A DNA stretch of 64,000 nt from positions 3,346,830 to 3,410,829 of the forward strand of contig NC_087389.1 in NCBI RefSeq assembly GCF_963675165.1, written 5' to 3'. The DNA is from Halichondria panicea (Eukaryota > Porifera > Demospongiae > Suberitida > Halichondriidae). Shown here piece by piece: positions 1,626-51,400 of the stretch. Position 1 is the first letter of the stretch. Each line of letters begins with the position of its first letter. The translations under genes were made by a program, and so were the position numbers. The notes beneath the pieces were generated by a model, which searched no databases, was not told the origin of the DNA, and saw nothing but the letters and a program-made list of their open reading frames with translations.

Positions 1626-3880
1626 AAACTACTTATTTGAATGACATGCAGGATTGTAGCGTAGTTTTCCTATAGACATTTTGAGTGTGTTTGAACTTAT
1701 TTTAGGTGAGAGTGATTTGCTGTCGATTAGAGTGTTTCTTGTGCAGTCTAGGGTTTTCAAATAGTTTCTTCAATAATTTATTATGCCTCAGTGCACGTCT
1801 TCAATAATTATTATGCCTCTCAGTGCGCATGCATAATTATAATTATGTGTGGTAATGTGTGTTCAATAATTATTATGCCTCACATCACCTATAATTATAG
1901 ACATTTTGAATGTGTTTGAACTTACTTTAGGTGAGAGTGATTAGAGTTAGTGTTTCTGTACTGGGTTTCATATATAATTATGTGAAACAGAGTTTCTTCA
2001 ATAATTATGCCTCGGTGTGCATGTGGTATAGCTACTGCATGCATGTGTGTTCAATCATTACTATGCCTCAGTGCGCATATGCAAGTGCAGTATACGTAGT
2101 GTGGATGCATGTGTCTAGCTATACTATAGTACTCTACCGTTGCTTCTAATTATACATGCAGGTGCTAAGTATAGCAACTTAATTGTGTAATGGCTAACTA
2201 AAGCTTTGTTCTCGAGCACATTGCAGTCACTACCACATTGCATGCAGTCTTTAGACTTGTATACGAGCATATCCTTGTTCCCAGGCCAATCCGTCTCCAA
2301 TTGAACGCCTAGGAGTCGACCTATAGCATTCAATTGGGAACGAGGCTAATACGAATCTGCATGTAACTTAAAGCTAGTTATGCACTATAACGCTTAGGCT
2401 GCTGGAATACAAAAGCAATTAAGAAGTTAGGATAGAGCTGGAAAGCTCTAATTGTACGTGCTGTTTCATAGATAGATAGATACAGGGTTTTGCAGAATTC
2501 TTGCAACAGGGCTAAACAGACACAGCAATGACTTCCATATATGGAAGTCAACTGCTGACTTATAATAATAATATTATTATGCAATGGTCATCCTGAAATG
2601 TTGATGCATGTGAGACAGGAGCTAGCTGACAAAAGAAATTGCCAGAGGAGATTTGGTTACAATAATTATAACGCCTAAGGGGCAGGCCTTCTGTCTTCAC
2701 GCTTATATCAATATCAGCCAAGTTTGGAGGGTGTTTCGTTTATGAATGCTTACAACCTTATGAGCTGATCTATATGCTCTCTGGATATCTTTCAATTCAA
2801 ATAATTATACACATACCAGGGTATAAATTATGTCTGTCATACAGGATTTTGAAAAGTCACCAGAACACAAAAAAAAAGGTCAACAGTTATTTCAATACCC
2901 TGCCGGCTATGGACACTCAGTCGGAAGACTGAGTACCTGAATGCAAATTTTAGGGAGGGGGGGGGGCCGGGGATTGGAGCCAGAGGGGGATAATCATATC
3001 CCTGTATGCTGCATATACAATACATGTACAGTGCATCCAGCTTAGAGAGTAGACTACCACAAATTTGTGAGTAGCTGTACTTAAATGTAAATATCTTTCA
3101 ATTGGAACATTTCTAAGAAATTGTGCTGATACCATGCATGTACCAATGTGTAGGTGAATGACCAAGCTACAACATACTCAAATGGGTTTGTGGCGATTAA
3201 TAGAACAACAACAAATTGTTATAGTGGGTAATCGGTTTGAGTAATAAAACAGTAATCTTGTACAGCTAAGGTCCTAGACTTTATCACATAATTGTGCATG
3301 GAGTCTCAGAATATATGTACTGTAATGCATCTATCAATGCAAAGCCCCCCTTGTCCCGGGAGGGGCCGGGGGGGGGGTAGTGGGGCTTTGCATTGATAGG
3401 TGCATAACATGTAAACACCTTAAAGAATAATTTATAAACAACACTATAGCTATGGCACGGATTGAAAATCACTATCTAAGTACACAGAAACATATGCACA
3501 GACCAACCAGTGCAAAACTGCCGTCTTCGGGGATAAACAGGAAACCACACCCATATTTTATGTCCAATATGGTAAAGGTTGTTTGCAATGTTATTGCTAA
3601 TCGTTAATCATACTGCCATCATCTGGCTTGTACATCTTGCTTTCAGCAAGTTCCTTAGTTTCTTGAACTAAAAATATAGGGTGTTCATACAGACAATAAA
3701 TGAACAATACATGAACATACTATCTATATATAATTCCTTGATATAGCTATAAATAGTAATTTGAATTTGAATGAACCTCCCACCAGAGGACAACCTCCGA
3801 AAAGAGGACAAAAGCTCTGCTCCCAAAGTGTCCTTTATTCGGAGGTTCCACTGTATGCACGCCATGCATGGTGCTCAATT
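1626..3880. other. CAPZA-KLHL18 convergent intergenic region with degenerate repeats
   Basis: No gene seen. Holds an imperfect duplication (about 1672-1745 and 1896-1955, both containing TTTTAGGTGAGAGTGATT), several copies of a TTCAATAATTATTATGCCTC-type motif between about 1770 and 2070, an F1-related AT-rich stretch, a fragment at about 2277-2346 matching the end of the element at 36835, a G-run near 2955 and a short palindromic MITE at 3326-3404. Confidence 0.6.
3326..3404. repeat. Short foldback MITE
   Basis: A 79-bp palindrome. The left arm TGCATCTATCAATGCAAAGC is matched by the inverted right arm ending at 3404 with one mismatch, and the centre is G/C-rich homopolymer. It lies between the 3' ends of CAPZA and KLHL18. 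Confidence 0.7.
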
Positions 3881-6800: not shown

Positions 6801-9800
6801 TAGCTCTCTAATAACCTTTGCATAATTGGAAAAGCGCTTCAATTCGAGTATAAAAAGCCTGCAGTTGAGCATACGCTTATAGTCAAGTAAGCGCTAATAA
6901 TCCAGTTTCTACGGTACTACACCTTAGAGATAACAGCTATTCTGAGTAACTTTAGGAAGTCATATGCTCCTTCCCTTTACGTGCTCCTGATATAATATCT
7001 GCATAATAGCAAGCAACCTTACATACCTTTGAGTCATAGCACTCAACGGTAGCAAGTCGAGAAGTACCGTCATAGCCTCCAAATGCAAATAACTTATCAT
7101 CAACAACAGCAACCCCCACGCGACTCCTTAGAGTACCCATTGGTGTAATAGATTCCCAGGTCTCTGAAGACGAATCAAACCTGTAGTATTACAATATAGG
7201 AACAATTGATGAGGATCTACTGTGCACTCAATGTGTCAGCATATAAAGTACTTGTACCATGATGTGTATGAACGTGCAACAAAGGAAAACAACCAAAGTG
7301 TCCATACAAATCCCATACACACTAGCCAGCCAGCAGGGTCTATGGAGGATAGGCCCCTGTCGACTGTGCTGAATTTGATCCTAATCATACATGTACATGC
7401 AGATAGAAGAGAGAGAGAGATTGGAAACAGAGCACCCTCGTGGTACATACATGCATACTTTCCGTGTTTCCGTTTCCCCGCAGTTTAAATGTGAAAGCTA
7501 ATTAAAACATGACTAAAATTGTTTTTTGCCTGTAAAAATCTACGGGCCGTTCTGTCGTCATATTATGGGACACAGGATACTACTTTATTTACGCTATAAT
7601 CATAAATACTATATAATTATAGGTACATGTACACAAGATTGAAGCATGAACTCTTCATGCAATGTACCTCTAGATACTTGCACAACTATTTTCTCAATTT
7701 CACACCATCATGGGGCATTAATGTTCAGGGTTTCTGACAACAAGTTTCCCGGGTTTTTGCGGGAGTTTTAGAAGCGTAACACAGCATGCAGAGCCACTAC
7801 GTAGACTTCAATACATCAACCATCACGTGAACCGCTTCCGTTGCCAATTATAATCTCTCTCGATCCTTTCTATCTATGGAATTACAGTAGACTCTCTCGT
7901 TAATCCGACCACCCTTGGGACAGTACAGCTAGCTTGGTAGGAACAGCGAGGCCGGTGCCCGCATTTCAGAAAATAGCTGCCGCTAAAAAACTACCCTACC
8001 TCGAATCTAATGACTAATTTTGCGGTTCTGTCTCGAGGTCTATTTATGTGTAATTCAATTTTATCTGCCAAATCACAAATGCCGTAAAAAACACACAAAA
8101 TTACATTCAACCTAGCCAGTATATAGAATAGCGAGTGGCCGTATTTCAGGCGAGTTTTTTGTAGTAAACATCTACTACTATACCAATCCTTACCAAACCA
8201 AATTTCCGGTACTTCAGAGAGCCGGTATAGCGAGAGTCTACTATATTAAACCGAGGCGCGTGGGCAGCTACGGGTTATAATCAGAGGAGGTCCGACAACC
8301 GTGCGCCTAATATTTTTTGCTGAATCAGCATTTTCATATAACTTTCCTGGAGGTACATGTTGCACTCCTCCTAGACTTACTTCTCTATCTTGTAGTTTTA
8401 GTGCTAATCGCATGATGTGCTACATGTATTAGTGACTGGAGAGTGTACAGAAATTAATCCCGTATCACATCCGGTCAAGCACTGGAGTTTGCAGAATGTT
8501 TGCAACACACCAGTAAAAAGCGTTAAGCGTTACGCGTTCCTTATATGGAATATGTGTACACAATGTGGTTTCTTTTACTTAGCCTCCTTCGCAGCCTTTC
8601 CTTTTTCTGTTCTTTGTCACACAGGTAAGAATTGGAGGAACAATGAAAGAAAGAACGAACCGTCCAAGAAAAAGGAGAGCCTGCCCCGTTAAGTCTGATG
8701 ATCTGCTACTGACATAGCCAAGCGTGGGCAAGAGTAAACTGCAATATCTGTCCTCCCACACACTGTGACACAATACTTGGAGCGTATTTACCAGGAACTA
8801 GAGGCAAAGTAGTGTGTGAAGCTAGCTACAGAACTAGAACAGTATAATGTAGACTTTTACTAAGTTAGCTCTACAAGATAAAGCATGAAAGGCTAGAGTA
8901 CTGATAATAGCCCTGTCAAAGGACCTGGGCAAAGAAGGAACCTATCCCAGATCCCGGACAACTCACAGCAACAGGCCCGGATTAAGGGGGTGGGTTTCAG
9001 GGGTTGCAACCCCCCCAAACACTCACAAAAACTAGCTCAACCTACACTTGTGTTGCTTGTGGCTAAATGAGAGCAATGTGGTTACTTACAAGCTGTGAAC
9101 TATGAAGTATTAGTATGAGTACAAGTCCACAGCAGTGAATACACAATAATTGTCATTCCACACATACCGTTCACGTATACATGACAAGGCACCTAGCTGT
9201 AGTAGACTGTAGTAGATTTGTAAGTACCCGTGTACTTTGATGTCAATTACAATTAAGGGGGCGTGGTCAAACATTTTGTGCGCTCGCTAACACGCACTTT
9301 TGTTTCATAACCCCCCTATAAATTTTTGGCTGGATCCGCCCCTGCAGCAATACTTCTAACATGCCAAAATTGAACAGATCCTCCCTTCATGTCATCAGAA
9401 GGAATGTTTTAGTCCAATTAAGAAGAAGCTATAGATCGCCCTGGTAAAATCACACTATCCAGGGCAAGGGCAACCAATTTTATCCTCGGATAATTACAGC
9501 AGAACTACAGACTACAAGACTCGCCTTATCAAACTCAATATGCTCCCACTCTCTCTATTGTTTGAGCTTCAAGACCTCACATTCGATAACGTTCCTAGTC
9601 GAGTGTCTCAAATTACAGCAGACAATGTAGACCCTGAGTGCTTATCTTGCAGGTATTATTTCCGCATCCACTATAGAGCTGGTTCTACTGCCATGAAGTT
9701 TCCAAAAGGAGCAGAACCTCTAAAACTACTACAATAGGATTGCACGACAATTGGACCCTATCGATCTAACATCATCAATACAATCTATTACATGTATCGA

Positions 9801-12800
9801 ACTAAGGGAACATTCGACATTAGTGCTCGTGCCCCTGTGGAAACTGTCTCATGCACACAAATTAGTCTCACTCTGTCAGTATTCGTGAGATCACAACCTT
9901 GCAACATTGTCATGTCATTCTCACAAAGACTAGACTACTGCTCAATAATAATATACTCAAGCCTCAAGGATAGGCTCAAGGATAGATGTTTAGTCTTTAT
10001 TATGCTAGCTAGGTAAGCCATCGTCTATGATATGTCCAGACTGGCTACAGCTTTTACATGTACATGTTTTATAAGTGAGTCTGCAATGCGTAGGCATCCT
10101 GTGGCTTTGTTTCCTGTAAGGCTCCGCCTATCCACTTAAAGCCCACGCTCATTTTCACTGTGCCACCACTGTGCCACCGTCACGCGACTTAGCGAGGCAG
10201 GTTCTTCTTTTTCTTGGGCGGTTCATTCTTTCTTTCTTTGTTCCTCCAGTTCTTACCGTATTTTATCTTATTGACCTGTGTGACAAAGAACAGAAAAAGG
10301 AGAGGCTGCGAAGGAGGCTATCCTTTACTACTTACATGTAAGTGTAGGAGCATTTTCCATACAAGGACTCACAACTCTCAACACTTTATTCATGTGTTTC
10401 AAAGATTCTGTAAATTGCACATCGTCATTGACAGCGTGCAATTACCTGTCAAGTAATTGCACGCTGTCAATGACGTATTGTTTTCAAATAACGGCTGCGT
10501 GGCTGAAAATGTTAAGAAAACTGCAGAGAACTTCATAATACGTATAATGGTTACTCGTGCAATATGGGATTAATAGCACGAGTAACAAGCAATGGCAAGG
10601 CTACTAATTGCGCGAGGCGTAGTACCCATACTATTAACGAGTGTTGCAAGTGCGCGCTTGCTAATGCCTCTCGCCATGTTTTTGCTTTCGCTCAGTGTTA
10701 TAGAAGAGGTAAATAATTTGCACAGAGTAAGAGAGAATGTAAGCACAGACAGTAGTATAGCACAGACAGTACAGTATATAAACAACTAATACTGAGAAGA
10801 AAAGACTTGTGTACATGTATCTATTGTTACCAGACTTGTGTACATGAATCTATTGTTATCTAGTCTATAATTATTGTATCATTTATTTTGTGGCTTACCG
10901 CTACCAGGCCTCAAGAAAAAGAACATGAAGAAGTAAGTTGATTCTGCCACTGGATTCTCAAACATGTGGGGAGGAGCTCGCATGCCCATTGCATCCACAG
11001 GAATAATTAAAGGGTGTGTCCAAAGAGATCAAGTTCTACTATCAGAGGAGGAACGCCAGGGTCAATAGGGTCACGTTTAATGAAGGGTTAAGCATTCTTG
11101 TTCTGGGTTCTTGACCTTTGCTGCATATAGCAGCTTAGCGCTTCTGTTCTTTATTTGCTTGCTTGGAAAGCTTACTATACCTAGATCTATCCAGTGCAGT
11201 AAGCCAGTACATCAAAATTTATACCCTAGCCACGGAAGGCTAATTTCCATATCTTGTGGTTTCGAAGAATGCAATAAAAGGTCAAAGGTTGCAATTAAAT
11301 CCTGGATCTCCTCTCTCAAGCTGATTCCTCTGGGGCGCGATAGCTCAACCAATTTCTGTTGTGATTATAAAGAGGATCAAGCTATTGGTGGTGTATAAAC
11401 TCAGGGGCGCGAGGGTAAACTCAGTTTTACATGTAAAACATAGGGCCATGTGGTGTTTTAATTAGTGATCGACCTTTTGACACTGGCATTCCTCCTCTGG
11501 GCTGCTACTATAGCTAGCTGTTTTAACAGATCTTTTCTAACTCTTGTAGCTAATAAAAGCTAGCGCTTTAGTGCAAGGCTAACTCATGTGTTGAATAGAA
11601 AGTTTGTGCAAACAGATGATGCCATATGAAGGATTCTGAAGAGACTGCAACAGCCTTCAATGTGAGTCAAACTAGCCATAACTCAAAAAAGAAGCTTTAG
11701 TTTGCTAATCCACGAATCAAAATCCAAGAGAACGTGGCTAGAAGCCTATAAAGAAGCTATTATTTTTCGTCGCATTGCAACCGTTGAGCAGTTACAGTTG
11801 GAACAGACACACACACACACACACAGTCAGCATTTACCGTATCCCTCGTGCGGCTACGCCTCGAGGCATAATTATTACCCGAGGCACACATGGGCGGCCA
11901 TGGGTATAGTAGCACGTTGGTTTGTTTGTAATAATTATGTGAGTCTACTCACCTGGATGCCATAGCACTGCGTTTACAGCATAGATATATAGCCTCCAAA
12001 CAATAAGTTAATTAGTTTAAAAGTGGCATATTTCGATGTTAAAGTTTCGTTGTTGTATAAAAGTGAGCAAAAGCTAAGAAGCTTAAACTTGCACGTAGCT
12101 CTACACGCGACCTTTATTCGAGGTGGATCTACATACTTGCAGTTGAAGTGATCTTTACCGGTCTCTATTAAAAGTAACTTCTTTAATCCTCGGTTTCTGT
12201 CAACAGCCGAGGGTTAGCACATCAGTGCTCTAGTACTAATTACATTTGTGGTGTTTTTCATGGCTGTTTTAACCCTTTGCAGTTGTGTGTACTCCCTTGG
12301 GCTCCGCCTTAGAGAATACAATGAACTGATCTTGGGTACAAACCTAATATTATTTATAGCAGTGCACAACTACAATTATTACACACACGTGCATGGCCCA
12401 TTATCATACCTTTCTACAGAGGACAGTGTAGCACCTAGAGAATTTAATCCACCGACAGCATATATTGTGCCAGTATCAATGTAGCATTTTCTAGCACGTC
12501 GTTTCTCAGATGATATGATTCCACTGCGCTCAGGTAGCAAATATATAATAAGAGCTTCATCGAGGAGATCTCGGCATTCCAAGGAATTATTTATGAGCTT
12601 GTTTGATTTCACTTTGTCTACCAATATTTCAGGAGACATCAACGGTAACCTTATCTTACTTAATAATGTTGGTAACAGAGCGCTCCGACTTTGCACATCA
12701 AAGTTAACCCATCGTAAAGCCGAATCGTACACATCTTCCTCTCCGTTCACTCGCAGATCATCCTTGCACAGGAAATTAAGCACCTGGGGCAACGTCAGAG

Positions 12801-13344
12801 TTAGGAACTCTTCACACTTAGACACTTCGACATACTTCGAAATGGCATACCTGCAGGCTGCTCTTTTAAGTGAAGGGCAACCATGAGCTTCAGCAAAATT
12901 AATGATACCTAAACAATTTTCAGGTTGAAGCTGGCTTTCGAGAAATTCAGAACATGCAAGCTTGACTTGCTCTACTTGGAACACACTTGCCGTACTTAAG
13001 AGAGCTTGGACATTTGAAGCTGTGATACAAAGCTCCCCTTCATAGAAGAAGTTCAACAATAACTCAAATGATTTGGGATCAATTTCCATCAATTCGATTT
13101 CATCTTGCCGTGACTCAGTCATTCCACTTAGAAACATAGCTTCGAAGTATGGTGAAGAGGCAACTAGTACAGCTTTATGCGCATAAAACGTCTCTTTCAA
13201 AATCCTTAAACAAATATCACACATCTTAACAGCCTTTCTCATATCTGCCAACTTCCTAAAAGCAAGTGAGAAGTGGTGGCTTGGTCTATACCAATACTTT
13301 TGTTGAGAGTTTTCTTTGACAATACTGTCCATTTCGATCGCCAT
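3881..13344 (-). CDS. KLHL18: Kelch-like BTB-BACK-Kelch protein, KLHL18-like CUL3 adaptor
   Basis: Eight exons read on the minus strand: 13344-12410, 7180-7027, 6402-6275, 6185-6085, 4397-4262, 4210-4110 and 4056-3881 (stop TAA at 3881-3883) give seven coding segments and a 576-residue protein, the usual KLHL length. BTB domain is at about 30-140 (FYAHKAVLVASSPYFEAMF), BACK about 145-250 (ALRWVNFDVQSR), then six Kelch blades from about 285 with GGYDG or GGHDG motifs. The blade series (GGYDGTSRLATVE, GGHDGLSIFNTVE, final HQGGVGVAV) follows KLHL18 better than other family members I know. KLHL18 recruits substrates such as Aurora A to CUL3 ubiquitin ligase. The first intron (7181-12409) is stretched by transposons. 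Orthology at the paralogue level is inference; family membership is certain. Confidence 0.85.
5076..5645 (+). mobile_element. F1 family non-autonomous element, full-length-like
   Basis: Starts with the F1 head (TTATGCCTCGGTGCGCATG, then a TG microsatellite) and ends with the F1 tail (ACACCTCCACCGCGGTGCTTTCAT). The body shows the shared blocks GTAAGAGTTTC, GGCTTCTAGTCATG, TTTTCAGAAGAGTGCGTAG and AGTGAGAAGAGAGCTGCAAG seen in all F1 copies. It lies in the KLHL18 intron 4398-6084. The ORFs across it are not conserved between copies, so it is non-coding. Confidence 0.75.
6420..6650. mobile_element. MITE-like insertion with GCAAA/TTTGC-rich ends
   Basis: Sits in the KLHL18 intron 6403-7026. The block TACTAGAATGTTTTGCGAGC recurs inverted at about 62255-62315 (GCTCAAAAATAGCAAACG and ACATTCTAGTAATGCGGTAT). 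The shared sequence marks a dispersed family; exact ends are not resolved. Confidence 0.45.
7401..7878. mobile_element. F4 family MITE (diverged)
   Basis: Left end AGATAGAAGAGAGAGAGATT and right end inverted (CTCTCGATCCTTTCTATCTA) match the F4 terminal repeats at 34292-34810. Interior has no coding signal. It lies in KLHL18 intron 1. Confidence 0.6.
7885..8243. mobile_element. pogo/Tigger-like MITE
   Basis: Begins CAGTAGACTCTCTCGTTAAT right after TA and ends in the inverted form GAGAGTCTACTA followed by TA. It shares its ends and interior (CCACCCTTGGGAC, GTGGCCGTATTTCAG) with the 429-bp copy at 25238-25666. TA target duplication and CAGT termini are the pattern of pogo/Tigger elements. Confidence 0.75.
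8579..10320. repeat. Long inverted-repeat element with about 110-bp arms
   Basis: Arm 8579-8690 (TCGCAGCCTTTCCTTTTTCT ... AAAAGGAGAGCCTGCC) is present inverted at about 10196-10320. The about 1.5-kb interior has no conserved ORF and contains the nested MITE at 8972-9344. Related arm sequence recurs at 14716-14830 and 36975-37045, so the arms belong to a dispersed family. Confidence 0.6.
8972..9344. mobile_element. Short-TIR MITE nested in the 8579-10320 element
   Basis: Imperfect terminal inverted repeats (CAGGCCCGGATTAAGG at left; TGGATCCGCCCCTG at right) flanked on both sides by CAGCAA (8966-8971 and 9345-9350), a probable target-site duplication. Interior is non-coding. Confidence 0.6.
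10424..10474. repeat. Perfect 22-bp hairpin
   Basis: Arms 10424-10445 and 10453-10474 are exact reverse complements (GTCATTGACAGCGTGCAATT...) with a 7-nt loop. A related hairpin with the same GTAATTGCACG core lies near 61900-61938. Confidence 0.8.
11552..11872 (-). mobile_element. F2 family element copy
   Basis: Reverse-strand F2 copy: it ends in GGCTACGCCTCGAGGCATAA, the inverted F2 head, preceded by an AC microsatellite. It shares AAGCTTTAGTTTGCTAATCC and GAACGTGGCTAGAAGCCTAT with the plus-strand copy at 44868-45240. It abuts an F3 fragment. Confidence 0.65.
11877..12236 (+). mobile_element. F3 family element, internally deleted
   Basis: Starts with a variant F3 head (CCCGAGGCACACATGGGCGG) and ends with the F3 tail (GCCGAGGGTTAGCAC ... 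AGTGCTCTAGT). Only about 360 bp remain of the element's 800 or more. It lies in KLHL18 intron 1, shortly downstream of exon 1. Confidence 0.65.
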
Positions 13345-13524
13345 AATTCATAAACAAGATCTAGATACTTGGGCGTGGTCTCACCGACCGAAAATGTTGG
13401 GGTGCTATAATTAAAAAGAATGCAGTACAGTGACTGTGTGCGTGTACGTGTACATGTACATAGTCGAGTCTTGCAAGCGAGCGCGCCAGATCAGACAAGA
13501 CTAGACTAGACCAGCAGAGTCAAA
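13345..13524. promoter_or_regulatory. Shared divergent promoter region KLHL18/NSUN5
   Basis: Only 180 bp separate the two start codons on opposite strands, so both promoters and both 5' UTRs must fit here. A GGGCGTGGTC (GC-box/CACC-like) block lies near 13371. I see no clear TATA box. Bidirectionality is inferred from geometry. Confidence 0.6.
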
Positions 13525-25979
<12,455 letters not shown>

Positions 25980-32618: not shown

Positions 32619-33272
32619 TCATTGGTGACAAAAGCGCATCAAATCTACTAAAACTTCTTGCTCTTGCTTTTTATGGAACTTGTACATTCTGGGAATCGTG
32701 AAACGTTGACCAGCTATGCAAGTTTGTACTTTAATGTTCCAGCCCAACTTCTCCTTCCATTGCTCAGCTATAGTTCCCCAGTGGTGACGTGTAGATGATT
32801 TATGTACCGAGTACACAATATCAGCAAGTTCTAGTGCCTTAACCACAAACTTTTCGTCTACTTTTGGTTGCTTTTTTGTTCCAAAAGGGGGGTTCATGAT
32901 AACCATATCGGAATGTGAAAAATCACTTTTTTCAATGTTTATAACATCGTTGTTCAGAAAAAATATTGTATCGTCATCTAATCCAACATCTTCCTTGTTT
33001 TCAATAGCAATGGATAGTGCTGAATCATCGATATCAACCCCTACAACTTTTGCTGCCGCGAGACGTACACAACCAAATCCTAGAATACCGCAACCACAGC
33101 CTAAGTCTAAAACGGTTTTACCGGCAATACCATCAGTAATATCAATGTAATGTAAAAGTTCAGCAGCAAACCGTGCAGGAGTCTGGTACTGCTCAAGTCT
33201 CACGTCTGGATTGGTGAATGATTTCAAACCTTCAAGATCATGTTCAATTCGTTTCAACCTTACAGTTGCCAT
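32619..33272 (-). CDS. METTL5: 18S rRNA (adenine-N6) methyltransferase METTL5
   Basis: Single-exon gene of 217 residues (vertebrate METTL5 is about 209). EQYQTPARFAAELL at 27-40 is the family N-terminal signature, DLGCGCGILG at 56-65 is the SAM-binding motif I, and NPPFGTKK at 127-134 is the N6-adenine catalytic motif. In animals it works with TRMT112 to make one m6A in 18S rRNA. The absence of introns is unusual next to its intron-rich neighbours and could reflect intron loss by retroposition. It is head-to-head with the Tudor gene, 203 bp between start codons, and converges with RAP1. Confidence 0.96.
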   Translation of the reverse strand: MATVRLKRIEHDLEGLKSFTNPDVRLEQYQTPARFAAELLHYIDITDGIAGKTVLDLGCGCGILGFGCVRLAAAKVVGVDIDDSALSIAIENKEDVGLDDDTIFFLNNDVINIEKSDFSHSDMVIMNPPFGTKKQPKVDEKFVVKALELADIVYSVHKSSTRHHWGTIAEQWKEKLGWNIKVQTCIAGQRFTIPRMYKFHKKQEQEVLVDLMRFCHQ

Positions 33273-33475
33273 TGCGAAGTAGATCTATGTACGTCGCTTG
33301 ATCTTCGTCGAAAAGTCCTGCTTTGCTTATCTCTGAAATGAGATAGTCACGTGGGACTCCGCCAAACTTGCCTGACCACGTGGCCGGTGCATTGGAAACA
33401 AGTTCTCTCATAGCTCAGAGTTGGGTGTCTGGTTCGATCTGACATGAACTGCATGCCGTTGCAGTTTTATCAGCA
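33273..33475. promoter_or_regulatory. Shared divergent promoter METTL5/Tudor gene with two E-boxes
   Basis: 203 bp between start codons. Two palindromic CACGTG E-boxes lie at 33348-33353 and 33377-33382, 29 bp apart. These are canonical USF/MYC-type sites; whether they act is inference. No TATA box is evident. Confidence 0.55.
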
Positions 33476-36400
33476 ATGAGTTCAAGGGTATGTCCAGCAG
33501 CAATAGCAAAGCAAAGATTGGCTGAAAAAGAAGCTGATGTTACAGAGCAACTGGAATTTGTCACCGGTTTAGTGAGGAGATTGAAGACAGATAAGAGCAT
33601 CCTTGTCGCGTCATTTGAAAACCAATATGACAACCTTCACGATCAGTTTGCTGTTGTCCATGATGCACTCATCTTTAAAGAACAAAAACTTCTTCATCAG
33701 TTAAAGAATGACCTGCGGTTCATATCCACAGCAAATGACGAGCTAACTTCGTCTGCAGAAAATCTGATCAAAAAGTCACGACACGTAAGATATTTTTATT
33801 TACGATTGGCAGAGTGTTTGTACCATGTTCGTTCTACTTATAAAACAATTTATAATACGCAGGGTTCTCCCCAGAAAATTTTGTCAGAGTGATGCGAGTT
33901 TCTATAGGCTTCTAGCCATGTTTTCTTGGATTTTAATTCATGGATTTGCAAAATAATGCTTCGTTCTTGAGTTATGCCTACTTGGAATGCCATTGCAGCC
34001 TTTTCAGAAGAGCACGTAGCCAAACTTGTTTACCGAGTGTTGCTACTCAACTTAGTAGTTAGCTCTGCACTAGAACACTAGCTATTGGTAGCTGCAAGAG
34101 TGAGAAGAGAGTTGCAAATCCACAAATACCAAGCCAGGAAAACATGATTAGAAGCCTATAGAAACTCTTACTTGTACTTTATTTTTCCTTGAGCAGCTGT
34201 AGCAGTCTACACACACACAAACACACTACCGTATACGTCGCTTGCGCATGCGTACCGACGCATAACTACAAGTAACTGTGCTTAGTCTGTGCATAGATAG
34301 AGTAGAGAGGGATTGGAAACGGAAGTGATTCACGTGATGTTTTACAATTAAGTCTACGTAGTGGCTCTGGGACCATCCGCATAACTTCCGCAAAAGCCCG
34401 GGATACTTATTGTGTCCAATGCATACATCCTAGCTACCCCCATTACTGAATCACATGCCCCCTGATAGTAGGTATCAATTGGAAACAAAGAAAATATAAT
34501 CTCGATTGTCGTGAAGTAGCTAGAGGTACACAGAGTGCTTTTCATGCCTGTGTTCCTATAGAACCTATGATATAGCTAAGGCTGTGTAACTAAATAGTGT
34601 CCTGTTTCCCAAATGGCCTCGAGTATGAGATGAAAGTCGATGTTTAGCAGCAGAACTGCTCGTGGACTTCTTACAGAGAGCAAAACAATTCTCATGAATT
34701 ATTCCTGTTTAGCCCTCGTGTTAAAAAGTAAGCCTCGATTAAACCGCGGAAATACACGGATGGTACTTCGAGGGTACTTCCGTTTCCAATCCCTCTCTAC
34801 TCTATCTATGGTCTGTGACCCGAGGCGCGTGGGCGGCCACGGGTTATAGTAGTCTGTCTGTTTGTCTGTTTGTTTGTTTGTAACGAGTATATCTACTCAC
34901 CTGGATGCCATAGCACTGCGTTTGCAGCATAGGTAGTCTTCACACAACAATATCTTGGTTTAAATAGTGGCAGATTTTGATGTAAAAGCTTCTTTGTCGA
35001 GTAAAAGCGAGCAAAAGCTAAGAAGCTTAAACTTGCCACGTGGCCTTGAGTCAAGGTACGGGATCACTTCAGCTAAAAATATCTAGTCAAGGCTTGATTA
35101 TGTATTTTCAGCTGAAGTGATCCCGTACCAGGAACAATTGAATACGGTCAAGAAAAAGTAGAATTGTGTGACTAAGGTTGTTGACTGACTCTGGATCCTA
35201 TACGTACTCCAGCCTGGAAGGAGCCATACTTCTCTTAGTCTAAGACTCTAGGCTTCTTTGCTGTGATCCCAGTCCATGTGCACGTTGTTACTTTAGTTTT
35301 GAGTTTAGTTTTATTGCTCCTGAGTTGCTGTGCAAGTCCTACATGATAACAACATCACTATATGCACTGCATTATATTTCTGGTTGCTTTTTAATCATGT
35401 CACCAGCCGAGGGTTTGCACTTTAGTGCTCTAGTATTTCAAGGTCTATACCTATTGTGATAGAATAATTTCATAGTTATAATTTATGGACATATCCACTA
35501 TACAGTACAGTATAGTATGTAAACTGATCTCCATGAAAACGTAGGCATGGTTTACCGGAACACATGCAATGCAGTGCTGGCAATCAAATCGAGGAGGTCG
35601 GACACCACTTGACCTTTCTGCTAATTATGACCTTTAATTAATCCTTTTTCACGCTCTGCTAGATCCGCCCAACTAGTGCGATAGTGGCCGTGGCACCCGA
35701 GGCAACACTAGATCTTGACTCTGTTCCTTTTTTGGTTTACTTCCCAAGCCAAATTTTTTGTTTCTTTGTTTTTCCAAACAATTGTGGCCTGTTGTGTGCT
35801 GTATTCATGTATGTATAAGGGATTATGGGGTGTTATCTGTGTCAAAATGACTATGACAATGTACACACGCGTGCATTCTATGCACATTACAATATGCATG
35901 TCAACATGCATATGCACGTTAAATATGCATGTCAACATGCATATGCACCTTACAATATGCATGTCAAAATGCATATCCTTACAATACGCATGCATGCAAC
36001 ATGCATATGCACCTTACAATATGCATGTCAACATGCATATGCACCTTACAATACGCATGCATGCAACATGCATATGCACCTTACAATGTGCATGCATGCC
36101 ACATGTCAACATAATATATACACATTACAACATGCATATACACGTTAAACAATTATCAAGTCAATAATAATTACATAGTATGCATGTGCATGTATACTTA
36201 CACATTACACAATATGCATGTATCCGGATATTGAGAGTAATTACACTGTAATTTTGTAGGCAGAAAGGGTGGAGTCTAGATTATGTGATCATTGGGTCAA
36301 AGTGCAAGTGCTCATTATATATAATAGGACTAGCACAATAAATTTATATTATCTCGTTGGCGCGAGTAATCTTGTCAGCCATTTATATCACAGCTATAAC

Positions 36401-39400
36401 TATAGCTAGCTAGAGTCTGATATACACTGTCGGTACTTCTTCTTCTTCCTTATTTTTCTCGCCTCCAGATTTGGAGAGTAGCCAACGAGGGCAGATTACA
36501 TTTAGAAGCCCACTCTCCACGTGTCGCCTTCACACTTTTTAGTAAGTTGCCCTGCTCTCTCAGCGCGCAGACATGCTCTCCTGCAGGATGCCCCAACCTG
36601 CGTCAGTGTTCACCTCCCCCACGACCCAAGGGCACTACATGACACCCTCGATCTACAATCTCCTGCAAGGCCTTGTCTGGCTGAAAGCTGCCCACGCGCA
36701 AGAGTGGCTCTTGCTCTTCATCAAAGCAAACCCGCGCTGATCTCCTTCTCACACGCACATTGGTTTAAAGCTCCACCCTCTTGCTGCGTGTTATAATACC
36801 CAATTTCAATATTCTTTTTCGTCTGCTCAATGGGTAGCCTCGACCCCAGGCCGATCCGTCTCCAATTGAACGCTAGGTCGCCTACTAGCCTCGACTCCAG
36901 CCCCTTGAATAGTGGGCCTGGTATTTACTGTTGGCGCGTGGGTGGACAATTAATTTATTATTTATCGTATTTTATCTCATTGAACGTTAAAACGGTATTT
37001 TATTTATTGTGATAAAGAACAGAAAAAAGAAAAAGGAGAGGCTACCTCTCTGTATATACTGTAGACAGAGACAGCTAAGTAAAACATCAGCTCTGTAGAT
37101 TTATTCATTAACTTGAGGCTCGGATCGGATACACACTCAGGCGACAAGTTAATCTCATAAGAAATTAGTTAAACCTGTGGGTAAAATAAATGTGGATAAG
37201 TACAGTGGCTGTGACGTAACATAATGTGAGGACTACTTATTGATTTACACAATAGATTTACCATTAAAAGCACTATCCATTAATATACACACTCAAGCAA
37301 CAAGTCCGGATACACACTCGAGCAACAAGTCCCTCGGATCGGATACACACAAGTCCCTCGGATTGTAAACACATTCAGGCCACACAGTTCTCGGATCAGA
37401 TACCATGTACTTACTCTGTGACCAATTTTCGGCAAATGTCACAACAATACTTCCTTCCATAGAGAATGGCACTGAACGTCGAACAGACACACTAACACTT
37501 TGAAGATGGCTTCACTCAAAGAAAGAAGAGGAGAAATCACCATCACAACACTTCTTTCAGAGAGAGGTGCACTGGTCCTGTCAAGCTTCACATCAATCAA
37601 GAAAGGGAGTGTCTGGAAAGCAGATGGACTTGCTCAGGGACTTGCCGTAGCTGGTCGGTACGGTACCCACATAAACACCAGCGTACAGACACTTTAACGC
37701 CTCCAGCTGCTTGTCTTTCAAGACTAGACCTAGTTTTCCAACACAGGATAACGCGTACGCGAGAGCAGAAGAGAAGGTAGCAGCCATTACATGATATACA
37801 CAACTTGGACTAGATTTCTTTTTTCAATGACATTATTATAAATGAAACGGATATCAATGTTTTACAACTAAATGTGGAATAAGAATACTGATAAATATAC
37901 TACAATTTACGATTACCAAGATTCTGGGTAATTCTGGCGCATGCGTAAACAGTGTATACCAGGCCGCCTTTCTCAGCGGCCTGGAATCGAGGCTAGTCGT
38001 CTACTAGTTATTTTTCAACTTCGTTCTATTAAAAAAAAATCGGCCTGGGACCGAGGCTACTCAATGGGCTACTCTTCATTAATTGGAGGCTACAAAGAAG
38101 AAGAGTCAGTACATGTGGAGGGCTTATAAATTATTTTTACCGCGCATGCACAATCAAGTCAAGATGTCACACCTACTAACAAACTAATTATTGCGGCGTC
38201 TTTTCCAGCTCAAATTGGAGTCTTGTGGAAGAGTGTGTGCCAACCAGTCTACCAATCATTATTATATGGACATGTATATGCATATTATTGGGTGTAAGTG
38301 TATAATTATGCTGCCGGAGGTATAATTATTGACATCCCATGCATGCAGTACAATACTGTAAATGTGTATAATAAGTATATGCATGTTGTAGTATGCATAT
38401 GCATGTTACATGCATGCATATTGTAACGTGCATATGCATGTTGACATGCATGCATGTTGTAATGTTCATATGCATGTTGCACATAATTATTGTAACGTGC
38501 ATATGGATGTTGACATGCATATTGTAAGGTGCATATGCATGTTGACATGCATATTGTAACGTGCATATGCATGTTGACATGCATATTGTAACGTGCATAT
38601 GAATGCACGCGTGTGATGTACATTGTCATAGTCATTTTGACACAGATAACACCCCATAAGGGATACGTTAAAGCTGACTGTGTATGTGCATGCATGTGTC
38701 TGTTCCAGCTATAACTGCTCAACGGTTGCAACCGTTTCTATAGGCTTCTAGCCACGTTCTCTTGGAGTTTGATTCGTGGATTAATAGCAAACTAAAGCTT
38801 CTTTCTTGAGTTATGGCTAGTTTGACTCACAGTGAAGGCTGTTGCAGTCTTTTCAGAATATCTTTCATATAGCATCATCTGTGCGTACAAACTTTCAATT
38901 CAACTTATGAGTTAGCCTTGCACTAAAGCGCTAGCTGTTTGTTAGCTACGAAACTGCATGTACTGTAGTGCCAGAAGCAGCCGTTGTGTACTCTGACCTC
39001 ATTGCAGATCCACCCCAATGCAAATACTGTACTTATTTATAATACAACTTCTACATGCTTCTACCCTGAAGATCATTCATATCAAGCCATCAGATAAACC
39101 CATTAAGCTACTCTCCTATAATGACTGTTGAAATATTCGTTGTCAAAAATTGCAAAGAGCACCGCATGTACTGATGCCTCGGTGGAGGTGCCAAAGCTAT
39201 ACACACATTATAATTGTATCGGCAGAGCCTTGCAACTCTTTTCTGTTCTCACTCTTGCAGCTACCAATAGCCAGCGTTCTAGAGCAGAGCTATCTACTGG
39301 GTAGAGTAACAACACTCGGTGAACAAGTTTTGCTACGCACTCTTCTGAAAAGGCTGTAATGGCATTCCAAGTAGGCATAACTCGAGAAGGAAGCATTATT

Positions 39401-42400: not shown

Positions 42401-45400
42401 GAAATTTTAGAATTGATTCACCTAATTTTGTTTATCTATGAGCTAGTTAGCTTGTACAGTGCATGATAGCTATATAGCTGGTGATATTCACCTTGAAGGA
42501 CTCTCTGGGCATGCTGTTACCTTGTCTGATCATGCTGAGAGAATGTGAGACATGGGTGAGGTCCTTTTATTCCAAGTTCCTGGTTAATATGAGAATATAA
42601 ATTTGTGAAATGAACTGCAGCATAATAGTATATGATATAGATCCAGTCAGGGTTGCCTGCTTGCCTTGTTTTCAAGTTATAATATAAATTTGTGAAATGA
42701 ACTGTAACATATAGTACAGTAGAACCTCGCTAATCCGAATAAAGCGGGACCAGACCCCATCCGAATACATTAAATTTCCGGATTAACAGATGTCATTATG
42801 AATATCATTAACGAAGACATTTTTGTACATTGTACATGTATTATGATATTACTGTGGCCAGAAGGGAAGCTGCTAGCTAGAATAGTCATTTCTCTCCAAT
42901 ACAGTGAGCTTGTGAGCTCTCTCTTCGTTTTCTTTGCAGTGGCCATTGTCTTGAGCAGTTTATCAATAAAATTATTGCTGATTCAGCTAACAATTTACAT
43001 TGCGCATGCGCAATACTCTATTCTACTGACAGCCCCTCCTCTTTTCAGTTTGCCATTTTGTCCAGATTTGCGAGGTTTCGGATTAAAGGGGTCCGGATTA
43101 GCGAGGTTCTACTGTATAATGAAAGCACCCCGGGTGCTGATGCCTCGGTGGAGGTGCCAAAGCTACTAAGCTACACACATTGATTATAATTATCATGATA
43201 ATTTACTCCATGCAAAATCCAGGGAAACTCAAGGAGTGGGTAATGATCGACCATGATTGTTGTTAAAAACGATCGATGCCAAAAGTTCATGCCTAAAATT
43301 AATGGCTGCAAGTCAGCAGAGCCTTGCAGTTCTCTTCTCACTCTTGCAGCTACCAATAGCTAGTGTTCTAGTGCAGAGCTAAGTACTAAGTAGAGTAGCA
43401 ACACTCGGTAAACAAGTTTGGCTACCTGCTCTTCTGAAAAGGCTGCAATGGCATTCTAAGTAAGGTAAGCAAAACTAGGCATAACTCGAGAACGAAGCAT
43501 TATTTTGGATTTATTTTGCAAATCCACGAATTAAAATCCAAGTAAACACGACTAGAAGCCTATAGAAACTCTTAATTCATCTTTGAGCAGTGTAGCAGTC
43601 TACACAGACACACACACAAACACACTACCGTATACCTCGCTTGCGCATGCGCACCGAGGCATAATTATGATAATATAGATCCAGTTAGGGTTGCCTGCTT
43701 GCCTTGCTTGCTCACTTTCTAGTCAGCTTGCGAGTCAGCTCTCATCACAGAGACATCTGATTGCTGGGTGGGCTCGAAATGGCTGCATTATACTCGAATA
43801 TAAGCGTATAGAGCTCTGCTATTGACCCCAAAAGCGCGTATGCGCTAATAATCCAGTTTCTACGGTAAAGCGTTTTTGAATTGCGGCTAGTTTTACTTAC
43901 AGTAAAGGCTGTTGCAGTCTCTTCAAAATATTTGTTGGCATCAAATGTTCACACAAACATTCTAGAAGAGCCAGAGATAAGAGATCATCTCATAAATTAT
44001 TATCATCATTCTAGGTATCACACACAATTTTAATTGTAAGTAGATCACGATCATCTATACTGAAAGCGTGTCAACTCTAATGTATAATTATGCCTGACAT
44101 ACCCCTGTGAATTATGACGTACATGTACTCGGTGAATTAAAGACTGTGTCCTTCATTTATTGCTGATTCAGCTAAAACGAAGCTTTGTCCACGCTTTTTA
44201 CCAGCAATTGTGTATAATAATATCTCAAACTGCTTAAATCTTTAGCTCTAATTCCGGAGTCCTAAACGCTCCTTTAAGCACTTACTTTTTAGTGTAGTAG
44301 TTAGTTCTAAGGCCTTCAATTATTGCTGATTCAGCTGACACAGTAATATGCGGAAGGAGCCGTTCCTTCAACTAAAGGTGAGATTTTCTATAAAACATAG
44401 TTTTCTATTACATGTAAAAGTACTCTACGTAGTGCAAATGTCTCCTTCCGCATATTACTGTGTGTACTAGCCTTAGAACTAACTACTACACTAAAAAGTA
44501 AGTGCTTCAAGAAGCGTTTAGGACTCCGGAATTAGAGCTAAAGATTTAAGCAGTTCGAGATCCATCTTTATGCAAAATTACTGATAAAAAGCAGGGGCGT
44601 AGCTACCATTGTTTCCTGGTTGCCCAGAACCCCCCCCAGGAGCTGCCGAGAAAATTGGGCAGGGCTCCCCTATAATTGAAATCATGCAGCCCTGCCCATC
44701 TTTTCATGCACGTGGCTGCAAATCAATCATCAGAGCTAGAGATGGCACCATGAAGCGTTTCACTTTGGCTTTGTCTCAGCTAGCTAGCTACCTCAAATAA
44801 AGAAGACCAAGACTTAAGTTCTAGTATCAATCCCAGTATTCTCAGACTCGGCTCTAAGCACAACTTTATTATGCCTCGAGGCGTAGCCGCACGAGGGATA
44901 CGGTAAAGCTGACTGTGTGTGTGTCTGTCTGTCTGTGTGTGTGTGTGTGTATTCCAGCTATAACTGCTCAACAGTTACAATGCGATGAAAACTAACAGCT
45001 TCTATAGGCTTCTAGCCACGTTCTCTTGGATTTTGATTCGTGGATTAGCAAACTAAAGCTTCTTTCTCGAGTTATGGCTAGTTTGACTCACATTGAAGGC
45101 TGTTGCAGTCTCTTCAGGATCTTTCATAGCATCATCTGTCCTCACAAACTTTCTATTCAACATATGAGTTAGCCTTGCACTCAAGCGCTAGCTTTTTGTT
45201 AGCTACAATACTCAGAAAATATCTGTTAAAACAGCTAGCTAGCAGTAGCCATTATTGGACACACCCTTATATGGATGTAATGCGCATGCGCGCTCATTCC
45301 CCACGTGTGTAGTGTCTTCTTCTGGCTCCCTCAGAATCTCGGGACGCTGCTCTGCGGGTAGGAGTGCCTTCTTTGCCCTGAATTCTGTGGGCGCGAGGTT

Positions 45401-48400
45401 CGGCTGCCTCCACCCAATCACCTCTCACAAGCTTTATTCCTCACTCTGCCTTCCAATTATGCTCTATGGATCAGAACTCTGGTCCCTAACAAAGAGCGAT
45501 CTCAACATGTTGGAGAGAACTCACAGGAAACTACTTCGCACAATTCAAGGCCTGCCTACAAGATGTCCGTCACTCGCCCTCACCAGCCTTATTGGCTCGT
45601 TGGAGATCTCGGCATTGGTGGACTGCAGACAGCTCTGTTTTATTAACTCTATCGGATGCATGTCTTCAGAAGATCTCCCGAAAAAGATTATGGTAGAAAG
45701 ACTTCTCGCCGACTCTCCATCAGGTCTCTTAAAAACATGGTCCACACTAGTCTTATCTCGTTGCTACCCTTCACTCTCGTCTATGATCTCAAACGGGAAA
45801 AACAAAGGGTCTTTTAAGACTGCTGCAAAGAAATCTGCACTAGTCACACAATACGTCAAGATGACGGACACATGCACAAATCTCCCTATCTCATCCCTCC
45901 CCGCCCTTCTAGGTCGCCCTTCGATGCTATGGTCATGCTGTCAGCTGGATCGTTCTATGCATGGCCCCTCAAATTTCAGAATCAGGCTCCTAGTGGGCTG
46001 TGACGGGCTCGAGCTGGATGCGTCCAGGTTTAGATATCGCAACAGAGGAAATATCTCTCCCGGTGATGGATCGTGCAAACTATGCAACACTGAAGAAGAA
46101 TCACCTTCACACTTTTTAGTAAGTTGCCCTGCTCTCTCAATGCGCAGACTTGCTCTCCTGCAGGATGCCCCATCCTGCATCAGTGTTCACCTCCCCCACG
46201 ACCCAAGGGCACTACATGACACCCTCTACAATCTCCTGCAAGGCCTTGTCTGGCTGAAAGCTGCCCATGCGCAAGAGTGGCTCTTGCTCTTCATCAAAGA
46301 TCTAAGGCAAACCCGCGCTGATCTCCTTCTCACAAGCACATTGGTTTAAAGCTCCACCCTCTTACTGCGTGTTATAATAATACCCATTTTCAATATTCTT
46401 TTTCGTCTGCCCAATGGGCTACTCTTCATTATTTGGAGGCTACAAAGAAGAAGAAGAAGAAGTGAGAAAATAATATCCAGATCCAGATCCTCCTGGCAGA
46501 ATCAAGCCACAAAACACTACCATATAACAATATAGATAACAATATGCATGTACACAGGTCTTTTCTTCTTAGATATTATATACACTGAACTACAGATCCT
46601 GGAAGAATCAATTTTCTTCTTTCTTGAGGTCCTGGTAAGCCACATAATACAATAAATAACAACAATAGATGCATGTAAATAAGTCTTTTCTTCTCAGTGA
46701 CTTTATATAGATAAGCTAACTTTAATATAAAATTACTCTAATACTTTAGAGTGAAAGCAAAAACATGGCGAGAGGCATTAGCACAGCGCCAGCTTGAACA
46801 CTAGTTCAGGAAGTATAAGTTTAGAACAATCTCAGCCACATGAAACCTCTCAGGTAAATGACATTTAATTGTGCTCAGCTAGACTAGCAATACACAATTA
46901 ATTAACACCTGCCTTTTAGTATGTCTATAGCTAGCTAGCTAGCTAGCTTCTCACAAACACATGTAAAAAAAGTCAATGAGCAGTAGGTGTGCCCCAATCA
47001 AGAGGGTGTGGCACCGGAAGTGGGCGTGGTCTAAAAATTTCCCGGCGCTACTGCGCCGCTGATTTTTCTAAGGAAACCCTGAAAAGCATGGACAGAGCTT
47101 CGTTTTCACTTGTAGTTCTACAGGTGATTAAAGATAAAGTAGAAGTAACTAACGTGGATCTGATTACTAAATCTAGCACTGTATATCACACTTCTAACAT
47201 GCAGAACAAGTCGACTTCCTTACCATCTGACTTGAATTAATACATGTATGTGTGTTCTTTCAGACGACATAAAAGAGAGAGTAGAAGTACGTAAGTATGT
47301 ATAAGCTCACAACAAACGTGGATCTAAACTAACACGTACTACACACCTCACTTCCAACTGGACAAGTCAACTGTCTGATCCTCTATCGGACGGTTACTAC
47401 ATTTTTGTACCTCTTTCATTTACTTGCAACATAAACAAATCAGAGCTTCCCACCAGGCGCCTGCGTATATTATATACGTATGCCCTAGTTAGGTGTGATT
47501 TTGTGCATTACATAACACTTATTTCATTATTAATCGTTGTCATTGCAGGCACTTCCAGTGTGTGTGTAAAAGTTCAGTATATTGACTATGGAAACCAGGA
47601 GCAAGTGCCTCTTAGTCGTTTAAGGGTACTGGAGGAATCTTTTTATGATCTTCCTTGTCAAGCATTGTCTTGCTTTCTCGCTGGTATAAAGCCTGCTTCC
47701 CACTCGTGGAGAGGACGCTGCAAGATCGAAAAACAGGTGTCCAACCAGTGGTTGCAACATCTTCTGTTAGGGAACAAAGTGGAAATGTGTGTGACTGGCG
47801 ATGATCATGATCAGTATGGAGTCGATATTCTGATAGAAAAAGAGGTGTTGCTGAGTGCAGAAAGGCATGCTAGCTTTCCTGTTTCTGTTCATGCTATCCT
47901 GCAGTTACCGGAGCTTGAGCAACAGGGCTCACTCGTTAGGCTTAGCTCATTTCTTTGCTGTGTTGGGATTGCAGAAACAGTGCCTATTTGTCATCCTATG
48001 GTTATGTCTCCTTGTCTGGAAACAACGGAAGCTGATACAGAAGCAATTAGCAGAACGTCATCTGAATATCTGCTCAGTACTTGTGCTGTTGAAATTACAT
48101 GCTGCATCCCTGAAGAAGACACCAACATAAAATTAATACCCAATGATCATAGCCGCAAAGCTGAAACTCTCCTCTCTCACAAAGAACAGGTTATTGATTG
48201 CAACTCCACGAAAGAAGATGTCGTAGCTGGCAGTGAAGTAGCCTATGATGACAAGAAAGCAAAAGACACCCTTAAAAGCTACGTGGGTCTGCAAAATCCC
48301 AGAAATCTACCGGCTGAAGGGGGACTATCTGCTGATCACAACATCACGAAAGAAGATATCACTGACACGGAGCTAGGCAGTGATCAAAAGAAACTACCTG

Positions 48401-51400
48401 TTGATCTTAACAACGCCAGAGTGTTAGCCGACGCGGAGGTTCTTGAAGAGCCAAGCGATGTTTTGATGGCAGGCAAACTGAAACCACTTTCCGTAAAATT
48501 AGGTGCTATGTCTGATGTTGTTGTACTTGTTTCTCATGTTGTGAGCTCAAAAGAGTTTTATGTACATCCCATCCAGGCAGATGTGGCACTAAGTGTTGCA
48601 CACTTATCAGAGTCGCTCACTAACCATTTGTCTTTTCAAGTGAATCAACGGCGTCTTAAGCATATTGCAAGCATTTCCAATGACGCTGAACCCGTTCTTT
48701 GTTGTGTTCAATGCCCAGAAGACAAACAATGGTATCGTGCAGTGATTTTATCCCCTCTTCAAGATAGTGTATCTTGTTCAGTTCGGTTGCTTGACTTTGG
48801 AGAACGCATCAGCGTACCATATGATTGTTTGTTTGAACTGGATGAAAAATTTTGTTGCTACCCTGCTCAAGCTGTTCACTGCTCAGTGTTCTTTGATGGA
48901 CACCTGTATCCAGATTCTGAATTAGATGAGAGAATCTGCAATTATTTGAAAGAATGTGTCGCAAAAAAGCAGTTAGTGGCTTGTGTTAAGGGTAAGTGTA
49001 CATGTATGCAACAACTGACCACTAATTAATGTCATGTTTATGCGTATAATAATATGATAATAGTGCTCTAACGTTGATGTAGCATCAGAGTTTGTACACC
49101 GCTTTTGCTTAGCAGTTATCCCACCTACATTTCACTCAAAATAGGAAGCAAAAATGATTCCAACGTCGCTGTCGAGTATGGCACAGTCCTCACTGTGGAT
49201 ATTATAGACACCAGTGGCGAAAAAGATGTGCATGTTGCTCATGATCTGCCACAACTGTGCAAGAATGAGTTGGCTGGTATATAGGGATATTGTTTCTTGG
49301 TGAAAACTAATAATATTATTACATTCTTACTAGGACATAAGAAGTTGAGTACTTGGAATCCAATGGAGCGAGATTACCTAGCCTTGAGGAACAACTACAA
49401 AATTGATGATGAAGATGTAGAGTTAACGTTGTCTGGATACAGTAAGAAATTCTATAGACATTACAGACCCACTTTGTACACTTATGTTATTTGTACAGAA
49501 AGTAGAAATCGCCCATGTCGCTTTTTCCATACAAAAAGAGGCTGTGACATGGGAGACAACTGCTCATACCTGCATCTACAAGAAGGTCTGAAGGATGCAT
49601 GCATAAGTCATCTTACCTGTCAATCATGTGTTGGTCTCATCAGGTGTCTCCGACAAGCAGTTGGAAGAAGTATTTACTGCTACTGACCAAATTCATCTTC
49701 CTGTTGTGGATTCAGTAGTGGGTGTCGTAGTCACTGCTATAGTGTCACCTATAAGATTCTTTGTTCAAATGCCAAAGGGATCGAAGTCAGTTTTGAGCAA
49801 ATCCATAGAAGAAGGTGAGTAACGTATATGTTAATTTAGTTTTTTATGGAGTCAGTATAATTATATAGAGGATGGTACTGGAAATTGCTTTGTGAAGTTG
49901 CTTAAAGAAATGAGGTAAAATTCCAGGATTGTCATTAATTTGTAGCATTGATTGTAGGCATGTGTCTGTAGAATATACTACAATCAACATGTGTTCTCTG
50001 AAAGAAGTGTGACATTGCCAGATTTGGGGGAAATTGTGGCTGTTCGTTATGAGTGGGATGAGGATTGGTACAGAGCTAGGGTGGTAAACCCATCTTCTGC
50101 TGGAAAAACTAAGGTGCCGTATGTGACTTTACTGGAATTATTTTTTTCTGGCGCTTATAAAAAGGCTTGTTTGAGACATCAAAACAATCATCCTGCATCT
50201 TTGACTCTTCAAACTTCTAAACAGTTGTGTAACCCATAGCTACAGTCAACAGGGTTTCATACAGAATTTTTAGCTGGGAGGGGAAACGTTTAATTGAGGG
50301 GGGTCTGGGGGTCCTCTCCCGGAAGGAATGGGTATCTGAGGTGCAATTTGAGTTTTTTGTGTGCTTCAAACCATACATTTTACTAGTCTATATTAATATA
50401 GTTTATTGAGGAGATTGTAGACATTTTTATGGAGAAAAGTCAGACATTTTTATTATGACATCATTAATTTTCAGATTTCTAGGGGAGGGGGATTTGGCTG
50501 GGGGTGGGAAATCCCACGGCGCCCCCCCCCCCCTCCCTCTGTATGTAACCCTGGTCAATGAATGCTGTTCACGAGTCAGTCACTCAGCTCTCTCAACAGT
50601 GCAGCTAGCCAGTGAAACTGAGCTAGACCATGCCCATTATTTTTCTCTACAAATTCTATACTAGCTGTAGAACATAAGTGCCAACATAATTTAGGCGCCA
50701 GCTGGACTGGACTGAATGCAATTTTTGGGTTCTAAAAGATGCACAACTCAGAAGTGGAATAAATTTTTTCTAGCGCTGTAATTACATCAATTACGGTACT
50801 ATAAATTAAATGGATATGAAACGACCGTAGTACTTGTATATATACAGTTAGTATGCGGAATTCTGCTGTTTTCTCAGGCGGCATGCCTCGATCCATGCAG
50901 CACCCTAGATATGCTTGGCTCAGAAGAGGGAGGTCACAATTAACCTTGGGCACTGAACTGAACACTTAACGATTCATCCTTTCTATCTTGATTACTCTGT
51001 ATGACACGCCTAGTGCCTAACATATGTGGCATTCCTTAATGAGTAGGTACATGTGTCCAGTAACGGAGTAATAAAAATGAATCTTTCAGGTAATAATTAT
51101 TAGTGACTATGCTAATTGTGTCCTCCCTCCTCTGTGCTTGGCCTTAGCAAAATGCCTGGATCAGAGATGTAGATAGGGTTAGCACCCATCATGGTAACAA
51201 ATGTTATTATGGAAACGACCAACAACCCTGTAGCGTTGTAAGATCGATTAGCTTATGCCCGCTAATGTTTAGAAGGCCACAGAATGTAATTGTTGTTATT
51301 GTTTTTTTTATTGCAGGTTTTCTATGTGGACTACGGTCATTTTGGCTTAGTCCGTGATGAGGACATCAGGAGTATCAAACCTAACTTTCTTGTGGTGCCT

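Follow-up and report, generated by a model that had tools for sequence, protein, structure and literature searches.

The window, as the whole stretch of 64,000 nucleotides analyzed here is called below, holds host genes for a BTB/BACK/Kelch protein (12379-13347, minus strand), a small methyltransferase (32619-33284, minus strand) and a Tudor-domain protein (47305-49029, plus strand). At 36826-38068, the 3' end of a LINE is interrupted by two nested transposable elements, a 1110-bp element lying inside a 106-bp MITE, with the following features:

36524-36825, plus strand: LINE 3' end, the target of the outer MITE; the match picks up again at 38069
36826-36834, no strand: 9-bp target duplication of the outer MITE, left side, CTCAATGGG; the LINE paralogue has this site once, as CCCAATGGG, near 46.4 kb
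36835-36885, plus strand: left half of the outer MITE, with a 21-bp imperfect TIR at 36835-36855; matches elsewhere in the genome
36877-36885, no strand: 9-bp target duplication of the inner element, left side, GTCGCCTAC, within the outer MITE
36886-37995, plus strand: inner non-autonomous transposon of 1110 bp, with ends TAGCCTCGA...TCGAGGCTA; siblings in the genome
37514-37576, minus strand: putative extension of the helicase in a shifted frame, TSAPLSERSVVMVISPLLSLS, which resembles SSPPSERSIVLVVCPLVSLM in the larger relative L007 (by eye, hand-counted, without a score)
37593-37787, minus strand: 64-aa frame predicted, from homologues in the genome and peptide comparison, to be a decayed remnant of the 5' part of a RecQ-like helicase gene
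37996-38004, no strand: 9-bp target duplication of the inner element, right side, GTCGTCTAC, one mismatch
38005-38059, plus strand: right half of the outer MITE, with its TIR at 38039-38059; matches elsewhere in the genome
38060-38068, no strand: 9-bp target duplication of the outer MITE, right side, CTCAATGGG, identical to the left side

The outer boundaries were clearly defined. When joined, the flanks aligned with the LINE 3' end at 46101-46454 over 331 of 358 columns (92.5%), straight through the junction, in line with the proposal of the preliminary description that the LINE reads through once the insert is removed. Since the flanks match this paralogue across the junction, and since the target word is single there, as CCCAATGGG, both the insertion and its target are real. 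The 9-bp duplication that had been described on both sides is indeed present, as are the 21-bp inverted ends, which are imperfect, with two mismatches (counted by reading). The uninterrupted paralogue of the target is a second LINE 3' end at 45249-46454 of the window, and a Pfam search with its ORF at 45249-46346 found no family at E ≤ 0.001. In arrays flanking the insertion region, at 35830-36160 and 38300-38650, ATGCATG-like words yield long spurious reading frames.

The interval 36826-38068 had been taken for one TIR element, a reading that had to be given up. A genome search with 36835-38059, in which 40 matches were scored out of 1634 candidates, gave 39 long matches (query span over 800) besides the window copy, and none of these 39 starts before query position 49 or goes past 1177 of 1225. 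The siblings are so confined because the 106-bp element encloses another, of 1110 bp, that has a 9-bp duplication to itself: TAGCCTCGA at 36886 and TCGAGGCTA at 37995 form a further pair of ends, flanked by GTCGCCTAC and GTCGTCTAC. The outer sequence, used as a 106-bp query after removal of the inner element and one duplication copy, gave 904 candidates, and all of the 40 matches scored lack the insert, covering query positions 1-106 or 4-106 at 87-99% identity. A single element of 1.2 kb would agree with the presence of the outer ends and their duplication, and one short weak match (C8:798033-798138, 71%, E 9e-4) does reach query position 1225, but the extents of the long siblings, the insert-free outer copies and the duplication proper to the inner element make it next to impossible. 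The order of events is thus the LINE, then the 106-bp MITE, then the 1110-bp element.

Both kinds of ends were abundant. A segment of 29 bases from the TIRs of the outer family has 621 matches in the assembly with up to two mismatches, elements with long TIRs being counted twice, and the left 30 bases of the inner element have 181 with up to three mismatches, the window copy included; the control gave 0 for the former, as did the reversed-pattern control for the latter. Within the window, a 19-base TIR word occurs seven times (up to three mismatches) against 0.00 in shuffles, four of the seven sites being the ends of the two nested elements. Recurrence of the ends as solo fragments had been noted at 2277, 20155 and 52902: near the first two there are partial outer-type pieces of 34 and 37 bp (94-95%), whereas the third, at 52900, is an inner-type end of 20 bp, and another inner-type end, at 63442, had escaped notice. 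The latter resembles, by eye, a very short element that has both of its ends. More generally, the sites at 14505, 52900 and 63442 are further TIR-like ends of the same superfamily.

Duplication of the target was a regular property of the inner family. Among the 18 inner copies read with their flanks, 17 have duplications, all exact, 16 of them of 9 bp and one of 10 bp, the sole exception being L016; the 9-bp length, on which the preliminary description had staked its reading, is therefore that of 16 of the 18. Two of these copies, L004 (C1:11.78 Mb) and L012 (C1:13.21 Mb), share flanks and represent one event, so that 16 of 17 independent copies have a duplication; they are the same element with identical near flanks, through segmental duplication or as an assembly duplicate. 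Divergence from the consensus averaged only 0.9% over 21 aligned copies, which indicates a young family, although most of these copies were picked from the matches scoring best against the window copy and the figures thus lean young; the window copy itself diverges by 2.2%.

The 64-aa frame in the inner element comprises what we take to be the Q-motif region and a mutated Walker A, and it had been proposed to derive from a RecQ-like helicase, with a profile search of 37595-37787 as a test. Taken alone, the peptide had no Pfam match up to E 1 and retrieved no helicase from the PDB sequences, which counts against the proposal. By contrast, tblastn with this peptide, scored for 150 genome matches of 289 candidates, found many sibling copies as well as more distant matches that fall in longer frames, and the longer versions match DEAD, Helicase_C and RecQ_Zn_bind in Pfam. 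The helicase identity of the fragment is confirmed only via these relatives, by sequence similarity. As for the degenerate Walker A that had been described, it is particular to the window copy (PTSYGKSL), and TGYGKS is intact in 18 of 20 aligned siblings, L025 and L030 being the others. Among 19 copies, excluding the window copy and L012, the three codon positions showed 9, 11 and 11 differences per 1212 sites each, and the difference rate was 0.0085 in the fragment versus 0.0088 outside. Selection on the fragment was rejected given these near-equal codon-position rates, which, together with the same rate inside and outside, indicate that it is an unconstrained passenger.

Larger relatives of 5.3-5.8 kb contain the corresponding genes. 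Their TIRs start with TAG, and they carry a transposase-like gene that combines a Cys-rich N-terminal ORF with a DUF6589 domain and, convergent to it, a RecQ-type helicase gene that begins close to the other TIR. In the L007 element (5643 bp, 2077-7719, duplication GTGTTTACC), one strand carries the helicase and the opposite one DUF6589 exons and a Cys-rich ORF that resembles zf-AD (E 4e-4, below Pfam's cut-off). A DEAD-box domain occupies 7018-7572 of L007, and the exon that follows matches Helicase_C and RecQ_Zn_bind in Pfam; this second helicase exon has WRN as its best PDB match (E 4e-29). L007 also holds an EGF-repeat ORF, which, like the three host genes of the window, is indicative of an animal genome. 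Other bounded copies include L034 (5349 bp, CTATGATAT), L035 (5821 bp, TGCCGGCCT), L037 and L038 (5600 and 5605 bp, with different TIRs, CACTGAACA and CCTTCGAAC), and L008 and L009 (2060 and 1451 bp, GTTCCAATG and CCGTATTAC), which have a TIR type in common with the outer MITE. Exact 9-bp duplications were thus found in seven of the eight bounded larger copies; the eighth, L033, has none and is 99.9% identical to L034 over the same 5349 bp. Six loci have the same DUF6589 score and nearly equal helicase scores (103.2-103.9 bits), and this, with the near-identical 5349-bp copies, suggests recent amplification. A transposase together with a complete helicase, which the preliminary description had proposed to look for in the longest copies, may be present in the larger relatives, as DUF6589 and helicase. 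For the inner family itself, the genome search with the helicase peptide revealed no complete autonomous copy among the 150 of 289 candidates scored. The nearest long relative seen, L027, is about 70% identical at one end, in an alignment of 547 columns. In L027 the helicase match breaks off at residue 142 (of 185) and passes into the DUF6589 gene.

The origin of the helicase fragment could be weighed on this basis. Duplications of 9 bp are a mark of Mutator-like elements, and the preliminary description had accordingly considered a Pack-MULE-like capture, in which a Mutator-like element took an exon of a host RECQ gene. Besides the 9-bp duplications, this would agree with the partial and decayed state of the 64-aa piece and with the fact that the inner element has no match, over its left 600 bp, in the larger relatives compared (L007-L011, L027). 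The helicase gene start, however, adjoins the same kind of TIR in the larger relatives, and pairwise BLASTP, which was the form given to the proposed comparison with host RECQ genes, favoured transposon helicases: all eight transposon-type helicases matched the sibling peptide (E 5e-22 to 0.006) and seven of them the window peptide (E ≤ 0.012, L050 being missed at E 1.4), whereas host RECQ1 gave no significant match with either (E 0.5 and 0.98, respectively), all these E-values referring to a set of only nine sequences. For five of the eight (L007, L009, L034, L035 and L037) the ends of the source element are mapped, and L011, L027 and L050 were called transposon-type by sequence and context only. 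Host genes were named by best PDB match (L049 as RECQ1, L048 as BLM), and the N-terminal comparison concerned RECQ1 only, the BLM exon being C-terminal. In line with this, the RECQ1-like (C13:1.508 Mb) and BLM-like (C7:0.229 Mb) loci are absent from the 150 scored tblastn matches of 289 candidates.

Nor did the relatives show a Mutator transposase. In Pfam searches, no MULE or Transposase_mut domain was found at E ≤ 1 in six ORFs of L007, nor, at E ≤ 0.1, in nine more ORFs, which belong to L034, L037, L039 and L040; the scanned ORFs of the relatives show DUF6589 instead, and Mutator membership was rejected on the transposase. The "Mutator-like" assignment is not supported, given these ORFs and given that 9-bp duplications are also made by AcademH, according to PMC10045372. 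We consider capture from the host to be very improbable; the helicase scrap is most likely, from the sequence comparisons, the transposon's own, as in the other origin that had been envisaged, a remnant of a family encoding its own RecQ-like helicase, which the larger relatives, the peptide matches and the following linkage support.

Across the genome, a RecQ-like match lies within 3 kb of 46 of the 63 DUF6589 loci, each of the 46 being convergent, while random placement gave a mean of 0.6 and a maximum of 5 in 500 runs, the length of contig C16 being assumed; at the other 17 loci there is no helicase match within 3 kb. This count used 121 helicase-search rows and 41 of 150 tblastn rows, hand-picked to omit most inner-family copies, and an earlier one, with hand-cut helicase rows and 16 tblastn rows, gave 45 of 63. 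One of the 46 linked loci (C3:3629098, a 1617-aa frame) is of the L039 type described below and may be linked only incidentally. The DUF6589 proteins of L007, L034, L035 and L037 have acidic residues in common within GDN, GD(Q/H) and LH-x-EH-x-N, motifs that recur in four families; this fits a DDE-type enzyme without being proof of one.

DUF6589 was also found in loci of another type. In L039 (1443-7093) it lies in one 1732-aa frame, and L040, L046 and L047 have the same arrangement over several frames; the downstream region resembles XPG nucleases by eye, and there is a Cys-rich CXC tail, weakly Tesmin/TSO1-like (E 0.015 in Pfam, 0.005 in PDB). The nuclease-like region found no support in Pfam, PDB sequence search or structure prediction, and hhalign against two host XPG-family ORFs gave no match; AlphaFold models of the nuclease-like and DUF6589 regions had low pLDDT (35 and 39, respectively). 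Copies on C3 and C14 match L039 past its inverted repeats. A search for AcademX with the XPG_I family gave nine matches, none of them near a DUF6589 match. Six XPG_I frames of 588-601 aa lie within about 114 kb on C13, at L055 (3751500-3754000) and its repeats up to 3.87 Mb. The L039-type loci are possible AcademX elements.

Taken together, these data very probably reflect a LINE hit by a 106-bp MITE and then by a 1110-bp non-autonomous transposon, both of AcademH type and moved by larger relatives. From a mechanistic point of view, the MITE would have inserted in the LINE 3' end and the 1110-bp element later in the MITE, both short elements having presumably arisen by internal deletion. Such derivatives, having kept their ends, may be mobilized in trans, by cut and paste, by the proteins of the larger relatives. 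The DUF6589 protein, a candidate DDE-type transposase, would bind ends of the TAGCCTCGA type and catalyze integration with a 9-bp stagger, and the RecQ-type helicase may assist transposition by unwinding. A broader proposal, which we put forward tentatively and consider rather doubtful, is that the convergent pairing of the DUF6589 protein with the RecQ-type helicase is both ancient and obligate and has been kept in families with helicases only about 30% identical to one another. In this pair, the helicase would unwind the target or the ends and set the 9-bp stagger, the ancestral DUF6589 transposase having partnered alternatively, in the same genome, with a helicase (9 bp) or with an XPG-like nuclease.

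These results correct a plausible misreading, the Pack-MULE capture of a RECQ exon, and tie DUF6589, a Pfam domain of unknown function on which a full-text search found no paper in the collection covered, to helicase-bearing transposons by genome-wide linkage. A literature search on RecQ and transposons in sponge genomes likewise found nothing on point by title. The near-identity of L033 and L034 suggests a recently active system, in which a role of RecQ-type helicases in DNA transposition is testable.

Comparison with known systems places the two elements as non-autonomous additions to a known transposon class, a tidy case of a known kind. MuDR/Mutator elements and Pack-MULEs share TIRs and 9-bp duplications with them, but the scanned ORFs of the relatives have no MULE domain and the helicase is not like host RECQ1. 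KolobokH duplications are TTAA, unlike the 9 bp observed here. PMC10799480 names KolobokH, along with AcademH and Helitron, among the sources of helicase domains. AcademX, to which a nuclease and 3-4-bp duplications are ascribed in PMC10045372, has a likeness in the presence of DUF6589 in L039, L040, L046 and L047 with a CXC tail and an XPG-like region seen by eye, but the elements studied here carry a helicase and not a nuclease. A separate, undescribed superfamily, with DUF6589, a RecQ helicase and 9-bp duplications, outside Academ, would accord with the function-unknown status of DUF6589, with the by-eye basis of the sister-lineage nuclease, and with a placement in Academ that is made from descriptions. 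We hold it to be improbable, since a helicase with 9- or 10-bp duplications is what PMC10045372 describes for AcademH, a lineage reported from animals and fungi according to the title of its defining paper (Kojima, 2020, Mob DNA 11:15), as cited in PMC12210899. The numerous short non-autonomous derivatives found here (181 and 621 end matches) differ from AcademH in fungi, which PMC10799480 describes as low-copy. Both window elements are, by description, most likely of AcademH type: TIRs are present, 9- or 10-bp duplications occur in 17 of 18 inner copies and in seven of eight larger bounded ones, and an element-encoded helicase is present within the mapped ends of L007, of which the window elements keep only a decayed fragment.
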